From a virus, in the IMG/VR virus record IMGVR_UViG_3300046665_000305, positions 1 to 64,000 of that record: 64,000 nucleotides of DNA; one strand, given 5' to 3'. A program made the position numbers and the translations under genes. The notes under the pieces were generated by a model. That model ran no database searches. It was not told the DNA's origin and worked only from the letters and a program-made list of their open reading frames with translations. Below are positions 16,340 to 53,797 of the stretch, piece by piece. The first letter of the stretch is position 1. The number at the start of each line of letters is the position of its first letter.

Positions 16340-17326
16340 TTAATCCTCCTGTGAAGTGATTTCCTTCGCCTTCTTGACCCAATCGCCAAATGTGGATTTA
16401 GCAATTCTGAGGGCTCGACCCGCACCCCTGATAGAACCGATTTCATTCACTTTGTCAAGGATTTCCTGTGCCGTGTAAATGTCGCCAAAGAGAAGATCAC
16501 TAGGAGTATCACCAAGAGCTAGTTCAGCTGTGTCTTCCTCTGGCGCATCCCACGAATCATCTACCGCAACATCAAAACGCTTTTCACGCTCGCCGTCGCC
16601 GGGATTATCGATTTCGCTTACGACTTCGTAGGTCCAAGCCCTGCCCTTGGCATTAGCATAATCCGAAGGGATAGCCACAACATCAGCGGGATTGATCTTA
16701 ACGACAACAACACGTGATTTTGAGGCATCACCAAAATGAGTTAAGTAACTATGAGCACAAAAATGTAGACCACGGCTGCAAGTAGAATTACGGTTGGGAT
16801 CGACCGTTTCACGAGGCATAGAAGGCTTTGAGCCAATACTGTTATCTGTTTTGTTGTCGTAAATACTGGTATAGTCATTATTTACCTTCTTAAATGCTAG
16901 GAAGTGACCATCTGATGTTAGAGGCATTTGCGCCGCTTCAAGGAACAGATACAGTTCGTCAATAGCAGTTTGTGAAGGGTTCTTCATCACATTATTCAAG
17001 AAGTTAGCCCAAATGGCAATGTCCCAACCTTCTCTCATGACTTCAATCATCTTAGTGGTCAAAGTATTGTGAAGCGGTCTGTTCTTGTAGTAAATCTGGC
17101 CATCTGTGACAGTCACGTCGCCAAAGAGTTTACCTTTGATCGTCTCAGGAATATTTGAAAGTTCCTTGACGCGGGCCACATCAAAATTGCCGTGACCCTT
17201 CTTCAGTTCGGTAACAATGTCTTCGAAATAAAGATGTGTCTTATCAACGGGTACTGACTTACCGTCAAAAAACAAAAGGACGCCTTTTGCGGTCAGAATA
17301 AAACCTAGTTCATGCATGTTGCTCAT
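16340..17326 (-). CDS. rIIB: rIIB-like protein
   Basis: 328-aa protein with the typical rIIB order: an N-terminal strand-rich region, a central PLTSDGHFLAFKKV segment followed by DYTSIYD, RETVD and CSRGLHFCAHSYL, then VVVVKINPADVVAIPSDYANAKGR, and a C-terminal helix-turn-helix-like tail. rIIA and rIIB are T4 lysis-inhibition/superinfection-exclusion related proteins that block the RexAB defence. Its start overlaps rIIA by 17 nt, as in other phages with the pair. Confidence 0.8.
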   Translation of the reverse strand: MSNMHELGFILTAKGVLLFFDGKSVPVDKTHLYFEDIVTELKKGHGNFDVARVKELSNIPETIKGKLFGDVTVTDGQIYYKNRPLHNTLTTKMIEVMREGWDIAIWANFLNNVMKNPSQTAIDELYLFLEAAQMPLTSDGHFLAFKKVNNDYTSIYDNKTDNSIGSKPSMPRETVDPNRNSTCSRGLHFCAHSYLTHFGDASKSRVVVVKINPADVVAIPSDYANAKGRAWTYEVVSEIDNPGDGEREKRFDVAVDDSWDAPEEDTAELALGDTPSDLLFGDIYTAQEILDKVNEIGSIRGAGRALRIAKSTFGDWVKKAKEITSQED

Positions 17327-19421
17327 TCTCTCTATCTACCATTTTAATATAATTAAAAATATTATTCAAATTATTTAAGAACGTGCCGTCATCATAGGAA
17401 ATAATGTATTTGTCGATCAACGGATAATCTTCTTTGATCTTTGTGACCCAATGTTTTAGGGCCTCATCAGAAGAAACTTCTATCGTGAATTCAGCTATCT
17501 TTTCGCTATAAACTTGGGGCGGGACAAGTTGCTGCCAAAGCAGAATGTTTTTCGCGTTCTCTGTTTGTTCATCCTCGCTCTTAGCATATCTACGCATAAA
17601 GTCAAGCACTTTTTTGAATGAAGTATCATTTTCATATTCTAAAACGCTTAATTCTTCGGCGTAATTTTTGAGCCAATGATTCATTTCCTTTTCTAGATTG
17701 CTTTTCTCAACAAAAGACTTGAAATCTAGACCCTTGGCCAATTCGTCGCGAGCCTCGGTCAGCGCGTTTGTCACGCCAGCCGCTTTGACCTTATTAAGAG
17801 ACTTCTGCTTGACAACAAAAATATTCGTCTTATCTTCGAACAGGTTATGTATTGTGTGGTTGTAAACGTATTTATCGTAAGACTCGTCTACCCACAAACT
17901 TCCGTTGTGTGTAATAATATAACGAGTGTCAGGCGTTAAGTTTTTCAGGTCTAGGACAGCATCACCTATCCCAAAGCCGACAACTCTTACCTCGCTATGT
18001 TTAATCCTTGGCAGATAAGATGATGGATCGGGCTTTTCGCGCTCAGGAAGATTGAAATCTTCTAGGCGGTAGAACTTCGGCGGATAACCTAAAAGCTTTT
18101 TTAATTTTCTTAATTGTTCAGGACTTGCACCATAGTCTCTGATCCAGACAACGTTATCGTGGTCTCCGATATTATTTTTGACCCTAGCATTAATTAATTT
18201 AACTTTTTTAGCTTTGGTATAATCTTCAACCAAGAACATAGTATCACTATCGACACTCCACTTAGTTGTGTATTCCTTCTCACTAAATTTAAGGTTTTTA
18301 TTTCTAAAATCATAAGCGCTGGTATAATGAATCGCGACGTTGTAGACTTGTCTGATCCTGTCGCGATTCATTGCTGATGCCACGTTAACCGGCTTATCGT
18401 TAAATCTCAGATGGGCGATATAGCTCTTGACACATGCAATAACAGAATGTTGATGCTCAGCAGCAAAGCAGCGCGCCTCATGCATCGTCTTGATTTTGGA
18501 GAACTTTTCCTTGTAGTCCTTGGTAATTTCTTCACTGACACAATCAGCCATATCAACGATATTTTGAATCGTTGCGTCGTCATAGCTGAGAGATTCACGG
18601 CTCGGCGTTACGTCGAGTTGCCCTATAGGAAAATCAATGAGAATATTAGATGTTAAAATATCCCTCTGAGCATAGGTCAGTTTGCCCAAGGCATCAGTAT
18701 CAATGGGATAAATTACGCAACCTTGCTTGGCGCGGGCCTTGCCGACGCCTTTAAAGATTTCAAAATTTGAACCGGTATAAAAAGGCTCGCCACGCGTTTT
18801 GAGTTTTACCTCGCCGCCACGGATGTTGGGAACAACGTCGAAACCCTCTAAGACGCGCTCCATCTCCTGCCTGAAGCGTTCACAATCCTTAGAGTTGACA
18901 GGGAACGATACCATCAAGCCATCTAGCTCGTTTGTGTCTTCTGACATCATGAGCGAGATTTGAGGAATGCCTTGAGGATTAAGGTAAGCACCATAGACAC
19001 GCTTCGTGCCGCGCATAAACGCAGTGACGGTGAAGCTATCGGTGTAAGCAAAAGGCGTCTTCGATCCGAGGCCAAACTTGCCAATCGCTAGGTTCGTATT
19101 CTCCTTCGTGCTGCGGAACACGGTGGTATAAAGGCCCATAATGTCTTCGTGAGACAATGAGGTGCCATAGTCTCGAACCGAGAAAATAGGGTCAAGGAGA
19201 TTGGGAAGCTGAACCTCGAAAGCGAAGTCGCTACGATCAGCTGCAATTTGAGCGTCATAAGCGTTTGAACTTAGCTCTCTGATGATGGCTTGAATTTTAT
19301 TGGAATAAAGGCCGTCGATTAGGATTTTGAATGCTTTTCCATTTGCGTCGATGGAAAAATTGCCTGTGTCTGCCGCGCCGTGAACAATCACGTCGGCACT
19401 TAACGCGTTATTAGAAATCAT
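17310..19421 (-). CDS. rIIA: rIIA-like GHKL ATPase
   Basis: 703-aa protein whose N-terminal third has GHKL-fold ATPase motifs: IIRELSSNAYDAQ (N box, Asn about residue 53), FSVRDYGTSLS (G1, DxG), and GKFGLGSKTPFAYTDSF (G2). This is the rIIA protein of T4-type phages. The large C-terminal part has no recognised domain. Coupled to rIIB. Host defence escape or lysis timing is the known role of the family; here it is inferred from homology only. Confidence 0.85.
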   Translation of the reverse strand: MISNNALSADVIVHGAADTGNFSIDANGKAFKILIDGLYSNKIQAIIRELSSNAYDAQIAADRSDFAFEVQLPNLLDPIFSVRDYGTSLSHEDIMGLYTTVFRSTKENTNLAIGKFGLGSKTPFAYTDSFTVTAFMRGTKRVYGAYLNPQGIPQISLMMSEDTNELDGLMVSFPVNSKDCERFRQEMERVLEGFDVVPNIRGGEVKLKTRGEPFYTGSNFEIFKGVGKARAKQGCVIYPIDTDALGKLTYAQRDILTSNILIDFPIGQLDVTPSRESLSYDDATIQNIVDMADCVSEEITKDYKEKFSKIKTMHEARCFAAEHQHSVIACVKSYIAHLRFNDKPVNVASAMNRDRIRQVYNVAIHYTSAYDFRNKNLKFSEKEYTTKWSVDSDTMFLVEDYTKAKKVKLINARVKNNIGDHDNVVWIRDYGASPEQLRKLKKLLGYPPKFYRLEDFNLPEREKPDPSSYLPRIKHSEVRVVGFGIGDAVLDLKNLTPDTRYIITHNGSLWVDESYDKYVYNHTIHNLFEDKTNIFVVKQKSLNKVKAAGVTNALTEARDELAKGLDFKSFVEKSNLEKEMNHWLKNYAEELSVLEYENDTSFKKVLDFMRRYAKSEDEQTENAKNILLWQQLVPPQVYSEKIAEFTIEVSSDEALKHWVTKIKEDYPLIDKYIISYDDGTFLNNLNNIFNYIKMVDRENEQHA

Positions 19422-20883: not shown

Positions 20884-22308
20884 TTAGATCGAAGCGTTAG
20901 CCCTGACCTCTGTGAACGTGATTGGTAGCTTCAGCCATTTACCTGTGTTCCAAATAGGCTTTAGGTAATTCTCGGTCCCATGTGAAGCATTAGCCAAGTC
21001 ACTGAACTTGACAGACACTAGCTTGGTGCCGTTGTGAACCACGGCTTGACGGCCACCCTTGCTCGACTTGCTCATGTCGGTCTTAGGCTTCTTTTGAACC
21101 TCGATTCGTTCATTTCCGATACGAATTTCGTTCGTCTTCATGGCCCAAGAGAAATCATCGCGCATTGGAGCCTGCAAAAGCTGTCCGCCCATCCCGAAGC
21201 AAATATTCTCGGCTGAGAAGCCAAAATCTTCCACAGCTTCAAGAATATCTTCAATAGAATTGAGATTTACGCCGTCGCCTTGGATGACACGAACTTTAGG
21301 ATTTAATACTTTAAAGCCCTTAGAGTTGATCGTGCTGCCAAACTTTTCATCCAGAAGTTCTAGAACATGAGGTACGATTTCGGTCGGTTCACCACTATCA
21401 GGTCGGACCACGATCCAGCCGTCACGAGCCTCAATCTTTTCCTTATGATCCATGCCGATGTACTGAGACACGAAGCGGTCAAGATCGTAACTATCTCCAA
21501 CGATTGAGATAATTGGATATCCCATCTCGGTAAACGTATCAATTACACGTCCAACGAAGGCAGATTCCCCTGCTTCGCCATTCATAGTCGTTACGCTATG
21601 TTCGGTAGCTGGCACTGAAATGATAACAGGACCATCTCGCTCAAGATCATGTTCATAATAATCTTCAGCCGCACCAATTGCTTCGACAGTATCGGAACCG
21701 AGGAAGTTAATGGCATGCGCTAATCCGCCAAGTGCTGCTGTTTCACCGGATGATGTGCCACGAGCGCCGAAGTCATTGAGGGCGCAAGCCAGTGTCATAG
21801 GGTCTTTAATGTCAAGATCGGACGTGTATTTATAAGCACTGGCGATTGTTTGCTTGATTTTGCGGCTCAGTGTTGCGACCGTGCTAGGATACCAAATCGC
21901 ACGAAGCAAACTAGTCTCGATATCAGCTACGATTTCAGGCATAGCATCGGAACTGACCTGGACCACGACAACGCCGGGACTAACGACAGTGCCTTCGGCC
22001 AAAGCTTCAATCTTTACCGGAACATAACCGCCATATTCATTGACGACACGTTCCCACAATTTGCGGTGAAACGGGACCATTGCCGACTTGGCATGGCGTT
22101 CCGCTCTGTCAATATCAACCCAAGACAACCTCTTGGTCAGATATTCCTTGATCCAAGCCTGAAGGCCGAAGAAGACGATTTCGTCGGTGTAAGCCGTCTT
22201 GCGCGCTTCGATATAAGAGGTAGCGCCTGTAATATCCTTTCGGACCACAAACGGATGGCTAAATTTGTAATTGTCGGTACTGGTAATTAGTGAACGTGTA
22301 AGTAGCAT
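20884..22308 (-). CDS. nadV: nicotinamide phosphoribosyltransferase (NAMPT/NadV)
   Basis: 474-aa enzyme that makes NMN from nicotinamide and PRPP. The N-terminus with NYKFSHP, the segments FGARGTSSGETAALGG, SVPATEHSV, VVRPDSGEPTEI, VIQGDGVN and FGMGGQLLQ are all hallmark segments of NAMPT, including the catalytic His of PATEHS and the PRPP/ribose-binding DSGEP. Length fits the family. It is encoded immediately downstream of the NMN adenylyltransferase gene, giving a two-step nicotinamide to NAD+ pathway. The pair is expressed from the promoter at 23429-23457 and ends at the terminator at 20854-20876. Confidence 0.9.
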   Translation of the reverse strand: MLLTRSLITSTDNYKFSHPFVVRKDITGATSYIEARKTAYTDEIVFFGLQAWIKEYLTKRLSWVDIDRAERHAKSAMVPFHRKLWERVVNEYGGYVPVKIEALAEGTVVSPGVVVVQVSSDAMPEIVADIETSLLRAIWYPSTVATLSRKIKQTIASAYKYTSDLDIKDPMTLACALNDFGARGTSSGETAALGGLAHAINFLGSDTVEAIGAAEDYYEHDLERDGPVIISVPATEHSVTTMNGEAGESAFVGRVIDTFTEMGYPIISIVGDSYDLDRFVSQYIGMDHKEKIEARDGWIVVRPDSGEPTEIVPHVLELLDEKFGSTINSKGFKVLNPKVRVIQGDGVNLNSIEDILEAVEDFGFSAENICFGMGGQLLQAPMRDDFSWAMKTNEIRIGNERIEVQKKPKTDMSKSSKGGRQAVVHNGTKLVSVKFSDLANASHGTENYLKPIWNTGKWLKLPITFTEVRANASI

Positions 22309-22325: not shown

Positions 22326-23390
22326 TTATGCGTTGATAATATCATTAATAATTTGTTCGTGATCCTCAAAGAACTGACCACGCATAGTGGGCAGCATTGA
22401 AATAGGAATCCACTGAGCATGTTTCGCGTCGTCGGACCCTTTCACTTCAGGCAATCCAGCCTTCACATTTTCAAGAACAAACTTGAAGCAATGAGAGATG
22501 ATGTGACTTCTGTTGCTCCTGAAAGGGTTGTCATAAACCTTAGAGGCTTGCAATGATCCAAACAGAACCTTTTCAGGTACTTTCAGTCTTGTCTCTTCAC
22601 GCAGTTCACGAACAGCGGCATGAATCAGACGTTCGCGATTAACGAAGCCTCCCGGCATGGCCCACAGATCGCGGCCATAATCATTTCCACGTTTAATAAG
22701 GAGAATGTGACCAGCTTGAATCACTGCGCTGTCTACCGTGGTGTGTGGACCACGGCCCCATGCCGCTTCATATCCCTTCTCATATTCCCAATCAGATCGC
22801 AGACCTTCCCAAATCTCGGGTTTAACCTTAATATGATTACCGATTGCGGTTTTCACTCTCGGATCAAGGTGAGGCGCTGTTGCGATGTTACCAGCGAAAA
22901 GGTATTCTCGAACAGCTGTAGCGCTAAGCACTTCGCCTTCGTAATCCGCTGGACTAACGGCTATTGACTCGTACTGAGGAAATAGTTTCAAATAGAAGCT
23001 AGTCTCGTCTTTCGACATACCGGCGAGCGCGATGGAATGAGTGTAATCCTTGAAACCGCGATTTGTATATTTCGCTACTGGTTCATGATTACGAATCGCG
23101 CTATTTACGGCATGTTGAACTTCCGCGAGCCAGAGATTATCGTTATACGGATAATCACCAACACTTGTGAGCAGAATCCGTTCGTCGTGATTCGTAGCGA
23201 TACGAATCATTTCCTGACGTTCCAAAGCTGTAAAGGGGGTTCTTGTGTTCCGCGCCAAGTTGTCGGAACCGCAAACTACGATAAGATAATCGCATTTCGC
23301 AAGCGCTTCCATCATTACTTTGACGTGGCCGTCGTGGATGGGAGCAAAACGTCCAATGAAGACGCCATAGTCGTATTTAATACCCGGCAT
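22326..23390 (-). CDS. nadM: bifunctional NMN adenylyltransferase / Nudix hydrolase
   Basis: 354 aa. N-terminal adenylyltransferase domain: GVFIGRFAPIHDGHVKVM (HxGH-type nucleotide-binding site at residues 7-24) and SATAVREYLF (ISSTxxR-like) near residue 168. C-terminal Nudix domain: GGFVNRERLIHAAVRELREETRL carries the Nudix box (GX5EX7REUXEEXGU-like) around residues 245-270. The first domain joins NMN and ATP to NAD+; Nudix partners usually hydrolyse ADP-ribose or damaged NAD. Start at ATG 23390, preceded by AGAAGGAG; a longer ATG start at 23417 has no such site. Confidence 0.9.
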   Translation of the reverse strand: MPGIKYDYGVFIGRFAPIHDGHVKVMMEALAKCDYLIVVCGSDNLARNTRTPFTALERQEMIRIATNHDERILLTSVGDYPYNDNLWLAEVQHAVNSAIRNHEPVAKYTNRGFKDYTHSIALAGMSKDETSFYLKLFPQYESIAVSPADYEGEVLSATAVREYLFAGNIATAPHLDPRVKTAIGNHIKVKPEIWEGLRSDWEYEKGYEAAWGRGPHTTVDSAVIQAGHILLIKRGNDYGRDLWAMPGGFVNRERLIHAAVRELREETRLKVPEKVLFGSLQASKVYDNPFRSNRSHIISHCFKFVLENVKAGLPEVKGSDDAKHAQWIPISMLPTMRGQFFEDHEQIINDIINA

Positions 23391-23428
23391 TTGAAACTCC
23401 TTCTCTTGCCATTTCATTTAACGTGCAA

Positions 23429-31158: not shown

Positions 31159-31378
31159 CGGAAGGAAACAACTCCCCATATTTACTGAGGCAAGAGTCGA
31201 TTGCTTCTTGCTCTGTTAATTCTGTTCCATCAAAAATGTCATACGGAGTGCATTCGCCTTCGTAATAAAATTTAGCCTTCCAATACCATCTGCGCCAGAA
31301 AATACAGACCGCAATTTCTTGGACATAGGCTTCGCACTTACAGTTTTCAATCAAGTAATATGCAGGTTTCACGATCAT
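31151..31378 (-). CDS. hypothetical Cys/Trp-rich protein, 75 aa
   Basis: Aromatic- and Cys-rich N-terminal half (CKCEAYVQEIAVCIFWRRWYW), acidic C-terminus. Overlaps the upstream membrane-module gene by 4 nt. Function unknown. Confidence 0.5.
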   Translation of the reverse strand: MIVKPAYYLIENCKCEAYVQEIAVCIFWRRWYWKAKFYYEGECTPYDIFDGTELTEQEAIDSCLSKYGELFPSDD

Positions 31379-31842
31379 CCTTCCTTCTGAAGGATATTTT
31401 GATCCTTCATCTCTACGCCTTCGATATCGCCCATACTGGATTGACCTTCACCTTTGCCCATTTTACCTTTTTTATTGTTTTTCTTAATAATGGCGGCTTG
31501 GCCGTTCTTGATTTTTTTGGTAAGCTGGTTAAATATTGCCCTATTTTCAGCATTATTTGGCATGCTGACGAGACGTGGTTCCTTGACGCCTTTCTCTATG
31601 ATGAGAAGGTAGATAGACTTACCGCCGTCATAACCGCTGATCATTAGGGCTTGGTTTTCCATTTCAGCGAAATTGATTGGCACGGCATAGCCAAAGTATT
31701 TTGGAACCTGAGTGGCTACGGTCCAATAACCGAGATAAAGCATTGGAATGAAAATAGCCAGTGAGAGCTTCCAATTATATCGGAAGCCGACAAAAACTGT
31801 AACAAGTAGAAGTCCAAGAATGATGATAGATGGAATGATCAT
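31375..31842 (-). CDS. membrane protein of the TolQR-like module, 155 aa
   Basis: Two N-terminal transmembrane helices (IIILGLLLVTVFVGF and LAIFIPMLYLGYWTVA), followed by a soluble domain and a Lys/Gly-rich tail (KKNNKKGKMGKGEGQS). It is fused into the same operon as the ExbD-like and TolQ-like genes with a 4-nt overlap, and may be their third component. Confidence 0.6.
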   Translation of the reverse strand: MIIPSIIILGLLLVTVFVGFRYNWKLSLAIFIPMLYLGYWTVATQVPKYFGYAVPINFAEMENQALMISGYDGGKSIYLLIIEKGVKEPRLVSMPNNAENRAIFNQLTKKIKNGQAAIIKKNNKKGKMGKGEGQSSMGDIEGVEMKDQNILQKEG

Positions 31843-32423
31843 GCCTTTAGCCTCGCAAAGAGAGAAATCTGTTCATCTTCAGACTTACTAATAAAGTTGC
31901 CATCCTTGTCGATATCGAACTGTAAAATAGTGGATTCCTGTTTAACAGTTTCCAGTACAACCACTTTTTCAATAATATCTTTATAAGGATTTAGCTTGAA
32001 GACCCTGATTTTGACCGTTTCTGGTCCTTTAGTTGGTTTATCAAAAAGCATTACATTGACGGTGTAAGTGCCTGCCATGACTACTCTAATGCTGGCTACC
32101 TCTCGGCGTGTGTGATTAACAATTAGGTTGCCGCTAGGGTCAGTAAAAGTATTATTTCTGCCTAGATTATCTGTGTCTAGGGTCATGCCGCCGATTTCTC
32201 TGGTGTGATAGTAGACAATGTCGTTATTTGGATTACTCATCCAGAGATCAACATCGTTTGGACTATCATCGGTCCACGTCATTTCGACTAGGAATTGAGA
32301 CGGATCAATGATCGTTCCCTTTGATTCTTCCTTCTTCGGCGTAGAGAGAATAATTACAACGAAAAATACTGCTATAAGGCATTGAAGTACATCAATGTAT
32401 GCAATTTTGACAGGGCCTTTCAT
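31839..32423 (-). CDS. ExbD/TolR-like protein with DUF2135-like extracytoplasmic domain
   Basis: 194 aa. The N-terminus is a single membrane helix with a conserved Asp at its beginning (AYIDVLQCLIAVFFVVIIL), the position and context of the proton-carrying Asp of ExbD (PFIDVML...). The remainder has EMTWTDDSPNDVDLWMSNPNNDIVYYHTREIGGMTLDTD, like the DUF2135 (YfaP) family, a beta-sandwich usually found outside the cytoplasm. It fits a stator-type partner of the TolQ-like protein next to it. Confidence 0.6.
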   Translation of the reverse strand: MKGPVKIAYIDVLQCLIAVFFVVIILSTPKKEESKGTIIDPSQFLVEMTWTDDSPNDVDLWMSNPNNDIVYYHTREIGGMTLDTDNLGRNNTFTDPSGNLIVNHTRREVASIRVVMAGTYTVNVMLFDKPTKGPETVKIRVFKLNPYKDIIEKVVVLETVKQESTILQFDIDKDGNFISKSEDEQISLFARLKA

Positions 32424-32443
32424 TAGGCTCTTCCTTTCAAAAA

Positions 32444-32851
32444 TTAAACTTCGTCATAATTATCGAAGCATAGCGCGATCTGATAATCAAGGGCAATGCT
32501 GCTGGCTAGGCCAAACAAGCCAGTGAGGAAAACTGGACCAACTTCGGTCAAGATATTCTGTCTAAAAGCCTCCATATCGTCAGCGCCCATGAACATTAGA
32601 ATAAGGCCTGTCATGGTGCCAATCAGGCCCCACATCGTAAAGCGATTTAGATGAAATCTAATTTTTTTAAAGTTGATTTTATCACCCATAATCCCTAAAT
32701 AGGCCGAACAGGTCACATAAAGTGCCAGAATTACCAGCGTGATGTGAGTCTTATCCATGGTCCAGATAAAGTTAGCTGCGTCATAAAATTGGATCAGAAA
32801 TGCCATGATGAAGAGCGAGACGCAGTTGAAGGTAAGCCATTTGTAGTTCAT
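32444..32851 (-). CDS. TolQ/ExbB/MotA-like membrane protein
   Basis: 135 aa with four hydrophobic segments. The third and fourth, WGLIGTMTGLILMFMGA and GPVFLTGLFGLASSIALDYQ, reproduce the paired pore helices of the MotA/TolQ/ExbB proton-channel family (LGLLGTV.GM, ..T..GL..AI). It would pair with the ExbD-like protein encoded just downstream to harness the proton gradient. About half the length of TolQ, with little cytoplasmic part. Confidence 0.6.
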   Translation of the reverse strand: MNYKWLTFNCVSLFIMAFLIQFYDAANFIWTMDKTHITLVILALYVTCSAYLGIMGDKINFKKIRFHLNRFTMWGLIGTMTGLILMFMGADDMEAFRQNILTEVGPVFLTGLFGLASSIALDYQIALCFDNYDEV

Positions 32852-32852
32852 A

Positions 32853-33041
32853 TCAAAGTTCCTTGTAACGCGCCGTTGCGCTATAGACTGCGAATGCGGT
32901 GATTAGTAGTGGAACGAAGTCACGAACCGTGACATCTAAATATAAGGCGAGACCATATATTCCAAAGAAAATACCGGCACAGAATACGAGATCGATAAAG
33001 AGTAACTTAAGCCAAAGAAAAAATAAGCTATGTGACGGCAT
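32853..33041 (-). CDS. small membrane protein upstream of the TolQ-like gene, 62 aa
   Basis: Start at ATG 33041 (MPSHSLF). Two hydrophobic helices (FFLWLKLLFIDLVFCAGIFFGIYGLAL, and LLITAFAVYSAT). It ends one base before the TolQ-like gene begins and overlaps the upstream gene by 14 nt, so it probably belongs to the same complex. Confidence 0.55.
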   Translation of the reverse strand: MPSHSLFFLWLKLLFIDLVFCAGIFFGIYGLALYLDVTVRDFVPLLITAFAVYSATARYKEL

Positions 33042-33366
33042 TTGACTTCTTTCCCGCCAGATATGCCGCTTCGGCGTGGCGTTCCACAATGTTTCTAAAT
33101 TCGGCGTTGTGGCCATATTCTTGAGGATAATAGCTGTTCCACCAAGAACAGAACGTTTGCTCATCGGCAGGAGCGGAGACGAAAAACTCAAACTCGTGTC
33201 CATTAGGATTACCAGAGTCGTCAGCCTCAATTCCCAACATGTCAGGAAAATCTTGGAAAAACTTTCCACCAACGGTGTAGATCTTTCCTACCGTAAAATT
33301 CCAGCCACCGTACCTGTGATTTGGATCGACAAAGATAACTTTGTCACCTTTTTTGTATTCAGTCAC
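33028..33366 (-). CDS. hypothetical protein with KGDKV barrel, 112 aa
   Basis: Starts with YKKGDKVIFVDPNHRYGGWNFTVGKIYTV, typical of a small SH3-like barrel, then an acidic linker and a helical C-terminus. Overlaps NadR by 8 nt. Function unknown. Confidence 0.5.
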   Translation of the reverse strand: MTEYKKGDKVIFVDPNHRYGGWNFTVGKIYTVGGKFFQDFPDMLGIEADDSGNPNGHEFEFFVSAPADEQTFCSWWNSYYPQEYGHNAEFRNIVERHAEAAYLAGKKSNAVT

Positions 33367-34375
33367 GAATGAATTCCTCTATCTCTCGTAGATCAGTGAA
33401 AAAATCGTAAACAGCTTCTACAACTTCTTTGCGCTGTTTCTTAATGTCAGTGCTTTCCACGACATGATATTTGCAGTCATATTCGTCCAGAAGGTCGATC
33501 CAGAACTGCATCTCACTTTCCCTCTTATCTCCGCCATATCTCAAAGGATCGGGCTCGAAAGGGATATTGTCATTTAACATTACATAAAGATCGCTTTTTG
33601 TCAAGTTAAATTTTTGGATAAGTTCTTCAGGCATTTTACCGCCGTAGATTTTATAATATCCAATGGTTGAAAGGAGATCAGTATCTCTTATATTAAACAA
33701 TGCAGTAGGTGCGGAAACCATGACAGCGTACTGACCACGCACAATGTTTAACATTTTTTCATCCGTGACTTCAGCGCCGACTTCTTCAAGATAAGGTCTG
33801 GCCCATTCATGAATCCAACGGCCTTCAAGCTTCGTGGCGAGCCACTTTGACATTGTGGTTTTGCCTACCGATTCTTGTCCGTAGAGGCAAACCGTTTTTG
33901 CCAATTTGCCTTGGTATTCGGGGAGGATATATTTAAAATTCTCAGCGAGATTTTGTCTCACACGCGTTCCTGTGACGCTCAGGATTTCCCTGCCAATATC
34001 GACAGGAACAAAAGTGACGCCAAGAGCTTCAGCAAATCGAGCGCCATACTTTTCAGAGGCGAAGAAATAATCAATCTTTTTGCGTTTAGTGACGGCTTTA
34101 TCTACAAGATTGGCCCAATAGTCCCAAAACTCCGTCGTGCCATCGTCATTTTGAGGCGCATCGTCGGCGTAATGCTCATGAACTGTTACATTCGTACCGG
34201 CATAATGTTTTGCTAAAACTTCGGCACGATCCAGCGTGAGACGAGGCTCAAACGATCTGATACAGACTATGACGTGGAGTCGATCAACGAATTTAGATGC
34301 AAAATCAATTAGATATTGATGACCACGAGTTGGAAGCAAGCCGCTAATTACTGTCAGTCCCGTCGTAGTTGTCAC
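33359..34375 (-). CDS. nadR: NadR-like NMN adenylyltransferase / nicotinamide riboside kinase
   Basis: 338 aa. N-terminal adenylyltransferase domain with SGLLPTRGHQYLIDFA (nucleotide-binding GH motif, residues 11-26) and SVTGTRVRQNL (ISGTxxR motif). C-terminal kinase domain with P-loop LYGQESVGKTTM (about residue 164), and DTDLLS after strand 3. The pair matches NadR, which phosphorylates nicotinamide riboside to NMN and adenylates NMN to NAD+. The N-terminal repressor domain of enterobacterial NadR is absent. With PnuC (35764-36411) it forms an NR import and salvage route. Confidence 0.85.
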   Translation of the reverse strand: MTTTTGLTVISGLLPTRGHQYLIDFASKFVDRLHVIVCIRSFEPRLTLDRAEVLAKHYAGTNVTVHEHYADDAPQNDDGTTEFWDYWANLVDKAVTKRKKIDYFFASEKYGARFAEALGVTFVPVDIGREILSVTGTRVRQNLAENFKYILPEYQGKLAKTVCLYGQESVGKTTMSKWLATKLEGRWIHEWARPYLEEVGAEVTDEKMLNIVRGQYAVMVSAPTALFNIRDTDLLSTIGYYKIYGGKMPEELIQKFNLTKSDLYVMLNDNIPFEPDPLRYGGDKRESEMQFWIDLLDEYDCKYHVVESTDIKKQRKEVVEAVYDFFTDLREIEEFIRD

Positions 34376-35763: not shown

Positions 35764-36411
35764 TTAGTTGAAGACTTCTTCAGATTTACGCCACTCAAAG
35801 TGACCATAAAGTGTATTTCCGAGGAAGTAAATGTACTGGATCACCACGAAATAAGCTTCCTGCTTGAAGTATAGGTAGATCGACAAGACATTGAGGACAA
35901 AGAATACGGCCCACGATGTGCGATGCTTATTGTCGAGCATGGCTTGAGCCACGGCATAGACTACAGCTGTCGTAACATCTACCCAAGTCTGCTCGTAGCC
36001 GAAATATCCATTGACGATGGTCAGGATCAAATAAGTGGCAAGCCCGATTCCGACATATCCGAGCCACCAAGCCGCATTCGGATTAGTAACGGGGCGGGTC
36101 ACGTCATCGCTGCGCCAGCGGAACCAGCCATAAATCAGGTTGATCGATAGGAGGATGTTGAACAGGCCGACCGCAGGTAGATCGGCTCTGTAAGACAAAA
36201 TGGCATAAAGAATGGTGGAAACCGCGCCGAGCGGGTAATTCCATCTCGTTTGGAACACGCACATCAGAGTGCAGACATAACTGGTCCAAATTGCAAAGAA
36301 TTCGACATAGTTAAAATTATGCACATCAACGAGACCAAGTGCCGCGCCCATTACATAAGTGATAATGGTAAGGTTTGTGCCCCAACCCAAGCTAGCCCAA
36401 TATTTATTCAT
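35764..36411 (-). CDS. pnuC: PnuC-family nicotinamide riboside transporter
   Basis: 215-aa polytopic membrane protein with seven hydrophobic helices. Family signatures: RWNYPLGAVSTILYAILSYRADLPAVGLFNILLSINLIYGWFRWR near the middle and FFVLNVLSIYLYFKQEAYFVVIQYIYFLGNTLYGHFEW at the end, as in PnuC transporters. It moves nicotinamide riboside inward by facilitated diffusion with trapping by phosphorylation. Together with NadR 1.4 kb downstream it completes NR salvage. Own promoter at 36480-36508. Confidence 0.9.
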   Translation of the reverse strand: MNKYWASLGWGTNLTIITYVMGAALGLVDVHNFNYVEFFAIWTSYVCTLMCVFQTRWNYPLGAVSTILYAILSYRADLPAVGLFNILLSINLIYGWFRWRSDDVTRPVTNPNAAWWLGYVGIGLATYLILTIVNGYFGYEQTWVDVTTAVVYAVAQAMLDNKHRTSWAVFFVLNVLSIYLYFKQEAYFVVIQYIYFLGNTLYGHFEWRKSEEVFN

Positions 36412-48304: not shown

Positions 48305-49330
48305 GTGGCTAAGCTTTTGACACGAGATGATTTCAGAGAAGGCGTCTTTGCCAGAGATGGTCATCGCTGTGTCGTATGCGGAATAGGCGGAAAACTTGAT
48401 GCTCATCACATCTTAGAACGCAGATTGTTTGCCGAGGGTGGTTACTACTTAGAAAATGGTGCCAGCGTCTGTGGAATCCATCACATCGCTTGTGAGGCTA
48501 CAGACATTTCGGTGGAAGAAATCAGGGGATACGCGGGGATCACAAAGAAAGTTATCCCTGAACATTTCTATGACGATCAGGTCTACGACAAATGGGGAAA
48601 TCCTATCCTGCCTAACGGAACTAGGTTGATCGGAGAGCTTTTCTTTGATGAATCGGTTCAAAAGATTCTACATGATAAGCTCCCATTGTTCACCCATTAT
48701 GTCAAATATCCTCGCACGACTCATGTTCCTTGGTCACCGGGGATGAATGAGGATGACAGAATGTTGAAAGACATGACCGCTTTCAGCGGTATGGAAGTTG
48801 TTGTAACAGAGAAAATGGATGGCGAAAACACTACGCTTTATAATGATTATATTCACGCCAGAAGTCTTGATGGTCGAAATCATCCTAGTCGCAATTGGGT
48901 TAAAAACTTTTGGAGTTCCATTGCCATAGACATTCCTGAGCGTTGGAGAGTATGCGGTGAAAACCTCTTTGCCAAGCACTCCATCGGTTACGATAATCTC
49001 GAAACTTATTTTTACGGCTTCTCTATCTGGAACGATAAAAATGTTTGCCTTTCGTGGGATGAGACTTTGGAATGGTTTAAACTTTTAAACATTGTTCCAG
49101 TGCCTACTCTGTACCGAGGCGTATATGACGAAAAACTCATTAAAAACATAGTCTTATCGTGGGACGATCATGAAGGTTATGTCGTTCGGACTGCAAGTGA
49201 ATTTTCTTTCGGGGAATTCAAAAAATATGTTGCAAAGTGTGTAAGAAAAGGTCATATACAGACCACGAAACATTGGATGCATGGGCAGAAGATGAAAGTT
49301 AACGAACTAAAGGAGAAAATTTATGAGTGA
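48305..49330 (+). CDS. HNH nuclease-RNA ligase fusion protein
   Basis: 341 aa, GTG start. N-terminal HNH domain of about 75 residues: RDGHRCVVCGIGGKLDAHHILERR, then GASVCGIHHIACEA (zinc Cys and HH/N-H core). C-terminal ligase domain: motif I VVTEKMDGENTTLY (Lys about residue 170), motif III-like VCGENLFAKHS, motif IV DHEGYVVR and motif V KYVAKCVRKGH, as in the DraRnl/Rnl5-type RNA ligases. One polypeptide thus has a potential nick-making and nick-sealing activity. It may instead use the HNH domain as a DNA-/RNA-binding module. Neighbour of the cREC-like protein. Confidence 0.75.
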   Translation: MAKLLTRDDFREGVFARDGHRCVVCGIGGKLDAHHILERRLFAEGGYYLENGASVCGIHHIACEATDISVEEIRGYAGITKKVIPEHFYDDQVYDKWGNPILPNGTRLIGELFFDESVQKILHDKLPLFTHYVKYPRTTHVPWSPGMNEDDRMLKDMTAFSGMEVVVTEKMDGENTTLYNDYIHARSLDGRNHPSRNWVKNFWSSIAIDIPERWRVCGENLFAKHSIGYDNLETYFYGFSIWNDKNVCLSWDETLEWFKLLNIVPVPTLYRGVYDEKLIKNIVLSWDDHEGYVVRTASEFSFGEFKKYVAKCVRKGHIQTTKHWMHGQKMKVNELKEKIYE

Positions 49331-50969
49331 TTTTGGAGCAGCAAAGCTTAAGGAAGCACGTCAGGCACGAATCGCGGAAATTACCGGCGTCAAGGCTAAG
49401 ACGGTTCAGACCGAAACGGCAAAAGATACCCGCGCCGAAAATATTGCAACGAACACGTTCTATAAGATCGTGCTCGATCCTGCTCTTTCACCCGAAGATA
49501 AGCAGAAAGCAGTAGCGAAAACGCTTGCTACCGTTGGTACGAAGGAAGAAAACAAGGCTACGATTAAGGCTCTGGATGAATTCAAGGAATTCCTTCAGCT
49601 TAAGCGCGAGCAAATGGCTGGTAACATCATCGATGTGACCAATACCAACACAACGGCGCAGCTTCAGCAAGTTTATACCACAATGAATGACGGCCTGATC
49701 GAATTCAATGAAGCGATGGAGCCAATTCTTGGAATCATTAATGCTATGCACGTGGTGCGCAAAGAAGGGAAGACGAATGAAATCTTCTCCGATATCCGTA
49801 ACGACCGCAGCGTTGAAACGGAATATAATCTAAAGGTCGAAAATATCAAACAGCGTTTCACATCAACGCAGCAGCTAATCGATGAGTTGACCAACGAAAA
49901 TGCACGACTCAGCGAAGACAAAGCTCTGTTCGGCCTGCTTGGGATTCGCCAGTCTTCGCGCGAAAAGATTGCACTGAATGAAATTTCTATCATTCAGGCC
50001 AAGGACAATCTTATCAGGCTGGAACAGGAACTGACAACTGTCTCGGCTCAAGCTCCGGTCTCTGTGGCAGATGACTCGGAATTTGGCAAGGCCAAGGCAA
50101 CGATCCGCGCCATGCTTGACCTTTCGGCGGAAGAACATCAGCGGAATTCAGCTAACACTGTTGAAAAGGCTAAGAAATTCGTTGAAGTTTCTAAGTCTGC
50201 TCTCGGTGGTATTCGCGGTAGTCTTAGCGGCATGGGTGAGCAAATCGACAATCTTACCGATGCGAACCAGTCCATGATTTCTGCATATGCCATTCTAGGT
50301 GAAGGCATTAAGGAAGCTGGCTCGGAAATCAAGACGAAGCGCGAAACTCTTGCGACCCCTGCCGAAGAAGAATCGATGATCACAAAGATGAAGCGCGACA
50401 ACGAACTTCGCGACATTGACGATCATCTCACTGTCTTGTCCAGTTCTGCCGTCGATACCGAAACGACCTTTGCCGATCTTTCGTCTCAGTCCGTGCGTAT
50501 CAAGACCATGGCAGATGCCAACTCGTCTCAGGTCGAAAAGGTGCGCAAGATGCATACCCAAGGTGTCGCTGGTGTCGCTGATCGACTTTCTGTCGTGCTT
50601 CAGGCCGTGGGTCAAGCCGCAATCGCTGAAAGCTCTGCCATTGCGCGTGACACAATGGTTCAGATGAGCGATGCGACGAACGAAATCGCGATGAAGGAAA
50701 GCATGCGTGTCGCTCTGGCAACGGGTGATGTGAATGACGAACTTGTCAAAGCCATGGAAGACCTTGGTGCATATGGTGAGGTGGTTCAGAAGGCTACCGA
50801 AATCACCCGCGAAAACGTAGCTGAGCTTGAACAGAACCTTGTCGCGATCCGCGAAATCGCTTCGTCGGTTCAGGATGCGGTCAAGGATAACGCTGCGGTC
50901 CACTCTTCGATCAAGGTTGAGAAGCCGGAAGAGCCCAAGCCTGCCGAAAACGCATCATTCAAGATTTAA
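49323..50969 (+). CDS. TelA-like coiled-coil protein, 548 aa
   Basis: Long, almost wholly helical soluble protein with extended coiled-coil segments, e.g. LIDELTNENARLSEDKALFG and several Ala/Glu/Lys-rich repeats. The pattern resembles TelA/toxic-anion-resistance proteins. A Pro/Glu-rich tail ends the protein. It overlaps the ligase gene by 8 nt and precedes an Hsp100 ATPase and a membrane protein. Codon use shows more GC at third positions than its neighbours. Function unknown. Confidence 0.5.
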   Translation: MSDFGAAKLKEARQARIAEITGVKAKTVQTETAKDTRAENIATNTFYKIVLDPALSPEDKQKAVAKTLATVGTKEENKATIKALDEFKEFLQLKREQMAGNIIDVTNTNTTAQLQQVYTTMNDGLIEFNEAMEPILGIINAMHVVRKEGKTNEIFSDIRNDRSVETEYNLKVENIKQRFTSTQQLIDELTNENARLSEDKALFGLLGIRQSSREKIALNEISIIQAKDNLIRLEQELTTVSAQAPVSVADDSEFGKAKATIRAMLDLSAEEHQRNSANTVEKAKKFVEVSKSALGGIRGSLSGMGEQIDNLTDANQSMISAYAILGEGIKEAGSEIKTKRETLATPAEEESMITKMKRDNELRDIDDHLTVLSSSAVDTETTFADLSSQSVRIKTMADANSSQVEKVRKMHTQGVAGVADRLSVVLQAVGQAAIAESSAIARDTMVQMSDATNEIAMKESMRVALATGDVNDELVKAMEDLGAYGEVVQKATEITRENVAELEQNLVAIREIASSVQDAVKDNAAVHSSIKVEKPEEPKPAENASFKI

Positions 50970-50982
50970 AACGTTCTTTCAC

Positions 50983-51011
50983 TTGACAAAGTAACTTAAG
51001 GCGCTTTAAAT
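50983..51011 (+). promoter_or_regulatory. sigma70-like promoter with -10 in a hairpin loop
   Basis: TTGACA (50983-50988), 17 bp, TTAAAT (51006-51011). The -10 is exactly the loop between two 8-bp arms of an inverted repeat (50998-51005 and 51012-51019; AAGGCGCT/AGCGCCTT). Drives 51051 onward; may also end transcription of 49323-50969. Confidence 0.6.
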
Positions 51012-51050
51012 AGCGCCTTAATTACATCTAAACTTATAAGGAGAAAAATT

Positions 51051-53048
51051 TTGGATTACCTGATTCGTGGTTCTGAATATCTGGCACAGCACGTAGGATT
51101 CAATCTCGTGGGTCGAAATCACGACTTGGACCGGCTCAGCGCTATTTTGATGCGCAGCGCGGCTAACTCTGTCGTGCTTGTCGGTCCCGGTGGTGTAGGT
51201 ATTACCGCGCTGTGCCTTGGACTTCAGATGAGGAAGGCTGATCCAGACGCGCCATTTGATATCGTGGCGAAGCGATTGTTCTGGCTAGATACCGATGGTC
51301 TTTTCTCATCCGGCGATTCCAACAAGACGAGTGAAGATTTCCGAAAGATCATGGCTCGTCTCGAAAAGACGCCTGATTCTATTCTGATCATCGAAGATAC
51401 GCGTGATTTCATTGAGGCTTGCCGTAACAATGGCGCGGTTCATTTCATTAATGACCTAATGTCGTCCGTTAAGCGGAACCTGACTCAGGTTATCTTTGAA
51501 ACGCGCGACGAAGATGCTGAAACTGTCATGAGGGTTCATAGTGACCTGAAGGAATGTTTCACAATGATGGACGTGATTGAGCCTGTCAAAGAGGCGCTTC
51601 ATGAAATCGTCACGAAGACAGCTGAAGGTCTGTCAAAGTATCACGAGATTGTAATCAACGATGACGCTATTCTTGAGGCGATTACACTTACGAACAAATA
51701 TCGTACCCGCGATCCGGGTCTCAGCCGTGCTCAGCCAGAGCGTAGCGTCACACTTCTGGATCGTGCACTTGCCAGTTATCGTCTCAAGGCTCACGCCGGT
51801 CTAGACGAAACTGTTTCTGCAAAGCTACGAGAATTTAATAAAAACAAAAGAGACGGCGAAATCGAAATCGCCAATCTTGAAGAAAATATTGAGCAAAAGC
51901 TGAAGGAAATCAAGGACAAGGGCGACAGTTTCAATATCGGGATTGAGCCTCCCGCCGTTATGGAACTTCGCAAAACTATTAAAGAATTCCAAAAAGTAGT
52001 TGATGCGAATAAGGCAGAATTTGATAAGTTAAAACTTCAAATTAATGCCGATCTACGCTTGACGAAAGAAATGGTGACGGAAGAATTTTCCACGATTTCA
52101 GGAATTGCGGCGTCGAAGCTTAATGAAAACGAGCGTGAAAAGCTGAAGGGTCTTGAGAACGCTTTGGGTCAGCGTATCTTCGGGCAAGCACAGGCCGTTG
52201 GTAAGTTGGCAAATGCGGTCAAAGTGGCTCGCGCCGTGCGTCGTAATAAGGAATCTCCGCAAGCTTCGTTCATGTTTCTCGGTCCATCTGGCGTTGGTAA
52301 AACCGAAATTGCAAAGGCTTTGGCCTCAATCCTCCTAGGTAGTGAGAAATCGCTGGCTCGCTTCGACATGTCGGAATACTCGGAAAAGCATGCCGTGGCA
52401 AAGCTTATCGGTGCGCCTCCCGGCTATGAACTGGCTGAGGCTGGTGGTGTTTTGACCAACTTGATGCGAACCAATCCTAATCAGATTCTTCTCTTCGATG
52501 AAATTGAAAAGGCTGATCCTCAGATTTTCAATCTCTTCCTTCAGATTCTTTCTGATGGGCGTCTCACTGATAACTTGGGCCGTACCGTATCGTTCGCAGA
52601 TTCCATCATTATCATGACAACGAATATTGGTCAGCCCCATTTCCTCAATGAGGAATTGACGTGGGAGGAGGCTGAAACTCTTGCGTATGAAGACCTAAAC
52701 AATACCTATCGTCCTGAATTCCTTAACAGATTTGCGGGCCGTGAGAACATTGTTTGCTTCAGAAAGCTTGAAGTGGAACATATCGAACATATTGTTATGC
52801 GCGAAATTAATAAAATTTCTGGCGTCTATGGCGAGGAAGGGATTGTTATCACTATTCAGGGACAAACGATCACGAATTTCTGCGCCGATCACTATGACCC
52901 TGTCATTGGGGCTCGCGGCTTGCCGGGATACATCGAAACCAATCTTGAGCCTATTTTCGCTGATTTTGCCATCGATGGCTTTACAGGTAATCTCTCTGTA
53001 AAGTATGATACTGAAACAAAATCATTTAAGGTGGAGAAGGAGCAATAA
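51051..53048 (+). CDS. Hsp100/ClpB-like double AAA+ ATPase with a degenerate first P-loop
   Basis: 665 aa, TTG start after AAGGAG. First AAA+ module: LVGRNHDLDRL, then GPGGVGITAL where the Walker A Lys is replaced by Ile, and SILIIEDTRDF as Walker B. A long coiled-coil of about 90 residues (KNKRDGEIEIANLEENIEQK...) lies between, like the ClpB middle domain. Second module is intact: GPSGVGKTEIAKAL, ILLFDEIEKAD, a pore-loop-like GAPPGYELAEAGG, and an IIMTTNIG sensor. No N-domain and no IGF-type ClpP-binding loop seen. Probably a remodelling ATPase that works with the neighbours. Confidence 0.8.
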   Translation: MDYLIRGSEYLAQHVGFNLVGRNHDLDRLSAILMRSAANSVVLVGPGGVGITALCLGLQMRKADPDAPFDIVAKRLFWLDTDGLFSSGDSNKTSEDFRKIMARLEKTPDSILIIEDTRDFIEACRNNGAVHFINDLMSSVKRNLTQVIFETRDEDAETVMRVHSDLKECFTMMDVIEPVKEALHEIVTKTAEGLSKYHEIVINDDAILEAITLTNKYRTRDPGLSRAQPERSVTLLDRALASYRLKAHAGLDETVSAKLREFNKNKRDGEIEIANLEENIEQKLKEIKDKGDSFNIGIEPPAVMELRKTIKEFQKVVDANKAEFDKLKLQINADLRLTKEMVTEEFSTISGIAASKLNENEREKLKGLENALGQRIFGQAQAVGKLANAVKVARAVRRNKESPQASFMFLGPSGVGKTEIAKALASILLGSEKSLARFDMSEYSEKHAVAKLIGAPPGYELAEAGGVLTNLMRTNPNQILLFDEIEKADPQIFNLFLQILSDGRLTDNLGRTVSFADSIIIMTTNIGQPHFLNEELTWEEAETLAYEDLNNTYRPEFLNRFAGRENIVCFRKLEVEHIEHIVMREINKISGVYGEEGIVITIQGQTITNFCADHYDPVIGARGLPGYIETNLEPIFADFAIDGFTGNLSVKYDTETKSFKVEKEQ

Positions 53049-53797
53049 TGGCTGACAATGATCTTCTTGAGCAAATGCGCAGGGCTCGCGAGACTCAGGA
53101 AAAAATTGAGCTAGACAGGGCCAAGGTAAAATCGGAATCTCGCGTCGAGCGCATGTCGGAAGATTTGAACATGTTCCACAGGTTCATTCTTCAGGTCGTA
53201 GCGGCGTGCCAGTGGTCGTTCTGGAACGTTGGTATTCCGACATGGAAAGTTGTTCGTTGGCCGTTCTGGAAGCTCCTGAAGCAGTACAGACGCCTTTGGA
53301 GCCTTGTCGTGTATCAGCGTGACGAATTTGAAAATCTCCGGTTCTCCAAGGTGAGGGCCGGGATGCTTCTCACTGGTTCAGTGATCTTTGTCTGGTTCTT
53401 CCTGTGGCCCATGATATTCTTTGCCGGTGAGGCGGTGAGTTATGGTTTGACCGCAAAAGTCAATGAAAAAATTTACTTGCACAATAGTCAAGAAATTGAT
53501 TCGGAAAATAACATTCACTCAGTGCAAGGCGCGACACGCCTACCGTTGGATGAGAATGACACCATCTATTTTAGAATCGAAGGGACGCTGTTCAACCACC
53601 TGTGGAGCTTGATGCATAGCCATGGTCTGTTCTACAGCGATTATGTCAGTGCCACCGTTCCCCCCGGCCTTAATATCTGCACCACAACGTCATACGGCTT
53701 CAGGTTAAAGCTCCTGATGCGCAATTGGGAAATTTATCCTCATTTGTTGAGTGCTACATGTAATCCAGTAAATGGCGAGGGTTTGAAAGATAAATGA
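53048..53797 (+). CDS. single-pass membrane protein of the ATPase operon
   Basis: 249 aa: charged N-terminal cytoplasmic part, one transmembrane helix (GMLLTGSVIFVWFFLWPMIFF, about residue 110) and a periplasmic domain whose end (TTTSYGFRLKLLMRNWEIYPHLLSA) resembles DUF1523 proteins. TAATG overlap with the ATPase. It would anchor the system at the envelope. Confidence 0.6.
   Translation: MADNDLLEQMRRARETQEKIELDRAKVKSESRVERMSEDLNMFHRFILQVVAACQWSFWNVGIPTWKVVRWPFWKLLKQYRRLWSLVVYQRDEFENLRFSKVRAGMLLTGSVIFVWFFLWPMIFFAGEAVSYGLTAKVNEKIYLHNSQEIDSENNIHSVQGATRLPLDENDTIYFRIEGTLFNHLWSLMHSHGLFYSDYVSATVPPGLNICTTTSYGFRLKLLMRNWEIYPHLLSATCNPVNGEGLKDK

Follow-up and report, generated by a model that had tools for sequence, protein, structure and literature searches.

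A three-gene membrane module of the MotA/TolQ/ExbB motor class in phages and proteobacteria, with a predicted beta-sandwich head

Introduction

What would a phage do with a small operon that looks like an ion-driven motor of the bacterial inner membrane? Known motors of the ion-driven 5:2 kind serve motility, the Ton and Tol systems and Zorya. The question is raised by a row of leftward genes in the 64,000-nucleotide stretch analyzed here (the window; positions 1 to 64,000 of IMG/VR record IMGVR_UViG_3300046665_000305, a virus record of 119,575 bases), which a first-pass annotation had read as a phage-encoded TolQ/TolR-like module with an unusual extracytoplasmic domain. Three of these genes, called Q, R and X below, form an undescribed set common to many rhizobial and aquatic phages and some proteobacteria, and resemble a miniature proton-driven motor whose periplasmic head is of a new type.

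Results

The ORF check found four leftward reading frames at the annotated positions, all on the minus strand between 33041 and 31375, with stop and start codons that overlap or abut along the row: TGATATG joins a hydrophobic ORF of 62 aa (32853..33041, minus strand) to the abutting Q, and ATGA joins R to X. Q (32444..32851, minus strand) encodes a MotA/TolQ/ExbB-type subunit of 135 aa, R (31839..32423, minus strand) a protein of 194 aa with one transmembrane helix, a linker and a periplasmic domain, and X (31375..31842, minus strand) a protein of 155 aa with two transmembrane helices near its N-terminus, a small conserved periplasmic region and a low-complexity C-terminal tail. Hydropathy gave four transmembrane segments for Q, one for R, two for X, in keeping with its annotation as a two-helix protein, and one clear segment for the 62-aa ORF. 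The last has no counterpart in the nearest relative, contig L007, so the conserved unit consists of three genes, not four as annotated, and the 62-aa ORF probably lies outside the core. It was also considered as a duplicated N-terminal half of Q, and this was rejected, the similarity being marginal (E = 0.03).

Compared with Pfam MotA_ExbB (PF01618), the window Q gave E = 3e-4 (21 bits; gathering cut-off 22.9) and its relatives exceeded the cut-off (E 2e-8 to 5e-6, 27-34 bits); the match covers both channel helices. The profile of the 73-member Q family matched solved structures of MotA (8gqy, 9e-10), TolQ (8odt, 5e-7), ZorA (8qyy, 1e-6) and PomA (2e-5), and hhalign paired Q with E. coli TolQ at P = 93.6. 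GLIGTM.G occupies residues 75-82 and GLFGLASSIA residues 111-120, and glycines G75, G78, G82 and G114 are kept in at least 70 of the 73 family members, T79 in 57, Thr or Ser at position 110 in 71 and Thr at column 111 in 67. Gly at this last position in the window Q counts against the motor reading, as does the Pfam score below cut-off. With the profile matches and the conserved channel residues, the assignment of Q-R-X to the MotA/TolQ/ExbB motor class is well supported. The cytoplasmic domain is almost nil in the window Q and nearly missing in phage Q proteins, unlike TolQ or MotA.

The Asp of the IDVL motif, annotated as the ExbD-like residue of the R helix, is Asp11, which lies within the transmembrane segment and is kept in 105 of 106 homologues. 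An AlphaFold2 model of R made from 106 sequences (pLDDT 91.2, pTM 0.74) has a helix at residues 4-27 and an all-beta domain at 44-181. This model had no fold match among solved structures at E < 1e-3, so the head is of neither the TolR/ExbD nor the OmpA type. No Pfam match was found for R, including ExbD/TolR (PF02472) and DUF2135 (PF09906), and its relatives likewise had no ExbD/TolR match; hhalign gave P < 3 for TolR/ExbD and P = 3 for MotB, with the helix alone aligned. The view that R carries something other than a TolR periplasmic domain was thus upheld. As to what it carries, profile comparison matched R with E. coli YfaP (DUF2135; E = 1.4e-5, probability 80) and with the C-terminal beta domain of the subtilisin-like protease 3afg (1.2e-3), and the motif W..DxDLxxxxPxGxxVxY links the head to both, so that it appears to resemble the DUF2135/PPC beta-sandwiches. 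Residues W50, D57, D59, D85, E108 and N123 are invariant, which suggests that the head carries a candidate metal site. Two other matches were discarded: one to DUF4425, which came from a poor single-sequence model (pLDDT 60) and disappeared with the good one, and one to a Salmonella phage SSBI34 protein, which is large, has a weakly similar domain and is not accompanied by Q or X.

X has no recognisable relative, and comparison with solved structures gave nothing below E = 0.04. A short motif of the type FYxxPxPxLPxK closes the X tail in cellular copies and in many copies from aquatic phages; it is missing from the window X.

The three genes travel together. Q lies upstream of R in 188 of 191 R loci, a few of them duplicates, and X follows R in 173; in a second viral scan, X followed R in 55/55 loci and all three genes were present in 54. 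The order Q-R-X is fixed at almost all loci, whether in viruses or in cells. The expectation that the operon recurs in other phages therefore held: in IMG/VR, 71 loci from the first scan and 55 from the second, with nine contigs common by name, correspond to ~117 distinct contigs (the longest 527 kb), and the module was found in 27 rhizobial phage records, among them Sinorhizobium meliloti phage 16-3 (p038, p040, p042). The isolates with the module are 16-3-like temperate phages, N3_19-like 68-kb phages, Pootjesviridae and RHph_I1_18. Contamination with cellular DNA was rejected, since isolate phages carry the module and the genes beside IMG/VR copies include those for UvsX, SSB, phage helicases and a head-closure protein.

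Among genome contigs, 293 relatives were found and 80 kept. Chromosomal carriers include Azospirillum, Skermanella, Geminicoccaceae, Tistrella, Kiloniellaceae, Granulosicoccaceae and others, mostly proteobacterial, and R was present in 37 of 289 sampled genomes (~13%) of the alphaproteobacterial class of Tistrella. Both phage 16-3 and chromosomal Azospirillum operons are found in laboratory strains. The module is thus phage-encoded, as annotated, but not phage-specific. Since 11 of 14 QRX genomes hold their own tolQ above the cut-off, QRX was rejected as a cellular Tol-Pal substitute. Chromosomal copies have ordinary, varied surroundings with no universal neighbor, so competition between phages need not be what the module basically serves.

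On a tree of 145 R sequences, whose deep branches are weakly supported, the virus/cell label changes 4 times, compared with 48 in shuffles. From this tree, viral and cellular copies appear to be old, largely separate lineages, which argues for a long residence of the module in phages; a recent pick-up from hosts finds no support in it.

Q and the R helix also differ jointly between close phages. The window and contig L007/L080 are mostly ~85-95% identical in nucleotides on the flanks, but within 32304..33150 (minus strand), which holds the 62-aa ORF, Q and the transmembrane half of R, identity is 50-56% or there is no counterpart. By gene, nucleotide identity is 56% for Q, 52% for the helix part of R, 86% for the R head and 90% for X, and amino acid identity between the two nearest phages is 41%, 35%, 95% and 94%, respectively. 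The boundary falls at the R linker, and a contrast this sharp was absent from the other close pairs compared; the block may have been exchanged or may have diverged in place. Joint divergence of this kind is expected where helix and ring must match, and it speaks independently for Q and R as a physical pair.

In lytic phages the module lies among replication/early-type genes, and in 16-3-like temperate phages between the lysis genes and att/int, directly after a trypsin-like protease, so it does not have a tail or packaging location. In the window it adjoins NadR-type (33359-34375) and PnuC-type (35764-36411) genes, which with genes for NAMPT (20884-22308) and an NMNAT-Nudix-like protein (22326-23417, by eye) make up an NAD salvage set. 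A Trypsin_2 (DegP/trypsin-like) protease was found in 26/39 QRX phage records of at least 40 kb, including the window's own genome (109743-110156; L196:2558-3325, ~109.6-110.3 kb; with an N-terminal signal or anchor), and in 0/6 tailed rhizobial phages without QRX that were picked without looking (Fisher p ~0.003 by hand, uncorrected for relatedness). The link depends on lineage, phiM9 having the protease without QRX, and an obligate protease-motor system was rejected on the 26/39 count. Neither TonB_C (PF03544) nor an OmpA/Pal-type domain (PF00691) was found in 12 QRX phage records.

Discussion

Work on the envelope powered by the proton motive force (PMF) is the most economical reading of these data. 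Together, Q, R and X would be a MotAB/TolQR/ExbBD-class machine of the inner membrane, a putative 5:2 ion motor in which several Q subunits make the channel ring and the single helices of a pair of R subunits sit inside it. Asp11 of R would relay the ion past the Q Thr residues, and rotation or conformational cycling would move the beta-sandwich head in the periplasm. X may act as a third, membrane-anchored partner in docking, coupling or gating. Made by the phage during infection, the machine would use the PMF for work on the host envelope and might alter the wall or the outer membrane in a way that keeps the infected cell intact and refractory to other phages; in many phages it would work beside the periplasmic DegP-like protease. 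We regard it as probable that Q-R-X is a 5:2-type motor that draws on the PMF and acts on the envelope of the infected host; superinfection exclusion would be a plausible use, one among several possible purposes.

Placement next to lysis genes invites a different account, in which motor and protease loosen or break the outer membrane or wall late in infection, replacing the spanins or acting beside them. The block does follow lysozyme/endopeptidase genes in the 16-3-like temperate clade, but these phages keep ordinary lysis genes, the module occupies early/replication regions in lytic phages, chromosomal copies exist, and a PMF-driven device stops once holins collapse the PMF; we consider a role in lysis unlikely. 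The motor might instead sense envelope damage and defend the infected cell against competing phages in the manner of Zorya, given the common motor class and the weak matches of Q to PADLOC ZorA models (2.6e-4 for the window, 1.8e-6 for Azospirillum). Such defense seems improbable for a Q of 135 aa without the long ZorA tail, an R without an OmpA-like head, and a locus with no effector or adjacent defense gene, in which none of the ten proteins neighboring the module has a PADLOC match.

The near absence of a cytoplasmic domain in Q would also suit simplified Q and R proteins that dissipate the PMF, or that mix with host TolQR, ExbBD or MotAB and block them. Host machines are often targeted by phages, and interference with host stators, raised in the first-pass annotation, may be a role. 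The R head is elaborate and conserved, X is conserved as well, and the chromosomal operons are independent; all this points to a constructive function, and a leak or poison is accordingly very unlikely. Acquisition from hosts of a TonB-like module for PMF-powered uptake or auxiliary metabolism would account for the SbmA/BacA-type transporter that follows some aquatic phage copies and the PQQ/alcohol-dehydrogenase ABC genes beside some chromosomal ones. Against it stand the 12 QRX phages without a TonB_C protein, neighbors that vary between lineages and the few phage-cell transfers on the R tree, which make it a highly doubtful explanation.

A PMF-driven envelope motor of this kind would differ from each of its known relatives. 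TolQR and ExbBD share the Q-R gene order, the Q channel helices and the Asp of the R helix, whereas the Q of the module has four predicted transmembrane segments and almost no cytoplasmic loop, its R head is all-beta and DUF2135/PPC-like with no TonB_C or Pal-type protein found (12 phages), and its X has no counterpart there. MotAB and PomAB include the best solved-structure match of Q (the MotA structure 8gqy) and share its four-helix layout and the Asp in the B-subunit helix; unlike them, the module has neither a torque-generating cytoplasmic domain nor an OmpA-like peptidoglycan-binding domain, and no flagellar genes were seen nearby. ZorAB is alike in motor class and differs in the features given above. 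The vWA-type TolQ partners likewise pair a TolQ-like protein with an Asp-bearing helix and a non-TolR head, but that head has the vWA fold where R has a beta-sandwich, and X is absent (PMC12204202); neither DUF2135 nor a module encoded by phages is mentioned in the text of that paper. YfaP/DUF2135 and the beta-jelly-roll domain of Tk-SP share the motif and beta fold of R and are not motor subunits.

The literature search found no phage TolQ/ExbB system, in line with the annotation, by which no characterised phage system of this form is known, and the recent surveys of the motor class that were read contain no mention of DUF2135 or of such a member encoded by a phage; as far as searched, the R head and the third subunit X are new to the class. 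If the proposal is right, phages possess a tool that spends the host PMF on the envelope, a compact motor in which both the head and the third subunit are new. More tentatively, and with some doubt, Q-R-X may represent a separate class of 5:2-type PMF motor, with a metal-site-like beta-sandwich head and the new partner X, that serves many phage lineages as a machine for envelope takeover or superinfection exclusion and bacteria in an undescribed envelope function.

Several further features of these loci were recorded. Homing-endonuclease-type genes separate Q from R in temperate rhizobial phages (L010:4273-5010, L011:4216-4974), and in aquatic phages an SbmA/BacA-type peptide transporter gene is located soon 3′ of X (L058:6628-7620; also L055, L068 and L078). 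In small-genome alphaproteobacteria, X is followed by a fourth gene for a putative lipoprotein of ~230 aa (L180:3426-4118, L178:5858-6565, L179:6328-7113, L182:5752-6441), two of which were tested and had no NCBIfam match. Chromosomal QRX adjoins PQQ-dependent dehydrogenase, PQQ-associated ABC or beta-propeller genes in L176, L184 and L188, and a portal-like gene (by eye) is found ~3 kb from the operon, on the other strand, in Kiloniellaceae-type loci such as L155. Elsewhere in the window, 49323-53797 encodes, in a row, a TelA-reminiscent coiled protein with no PHROG match, a ClpA-type AAA protein (phrog_4871) and a membrane protein without a family match, and 16340-19421 holds tandem rIIA- and rIIB-type genes.
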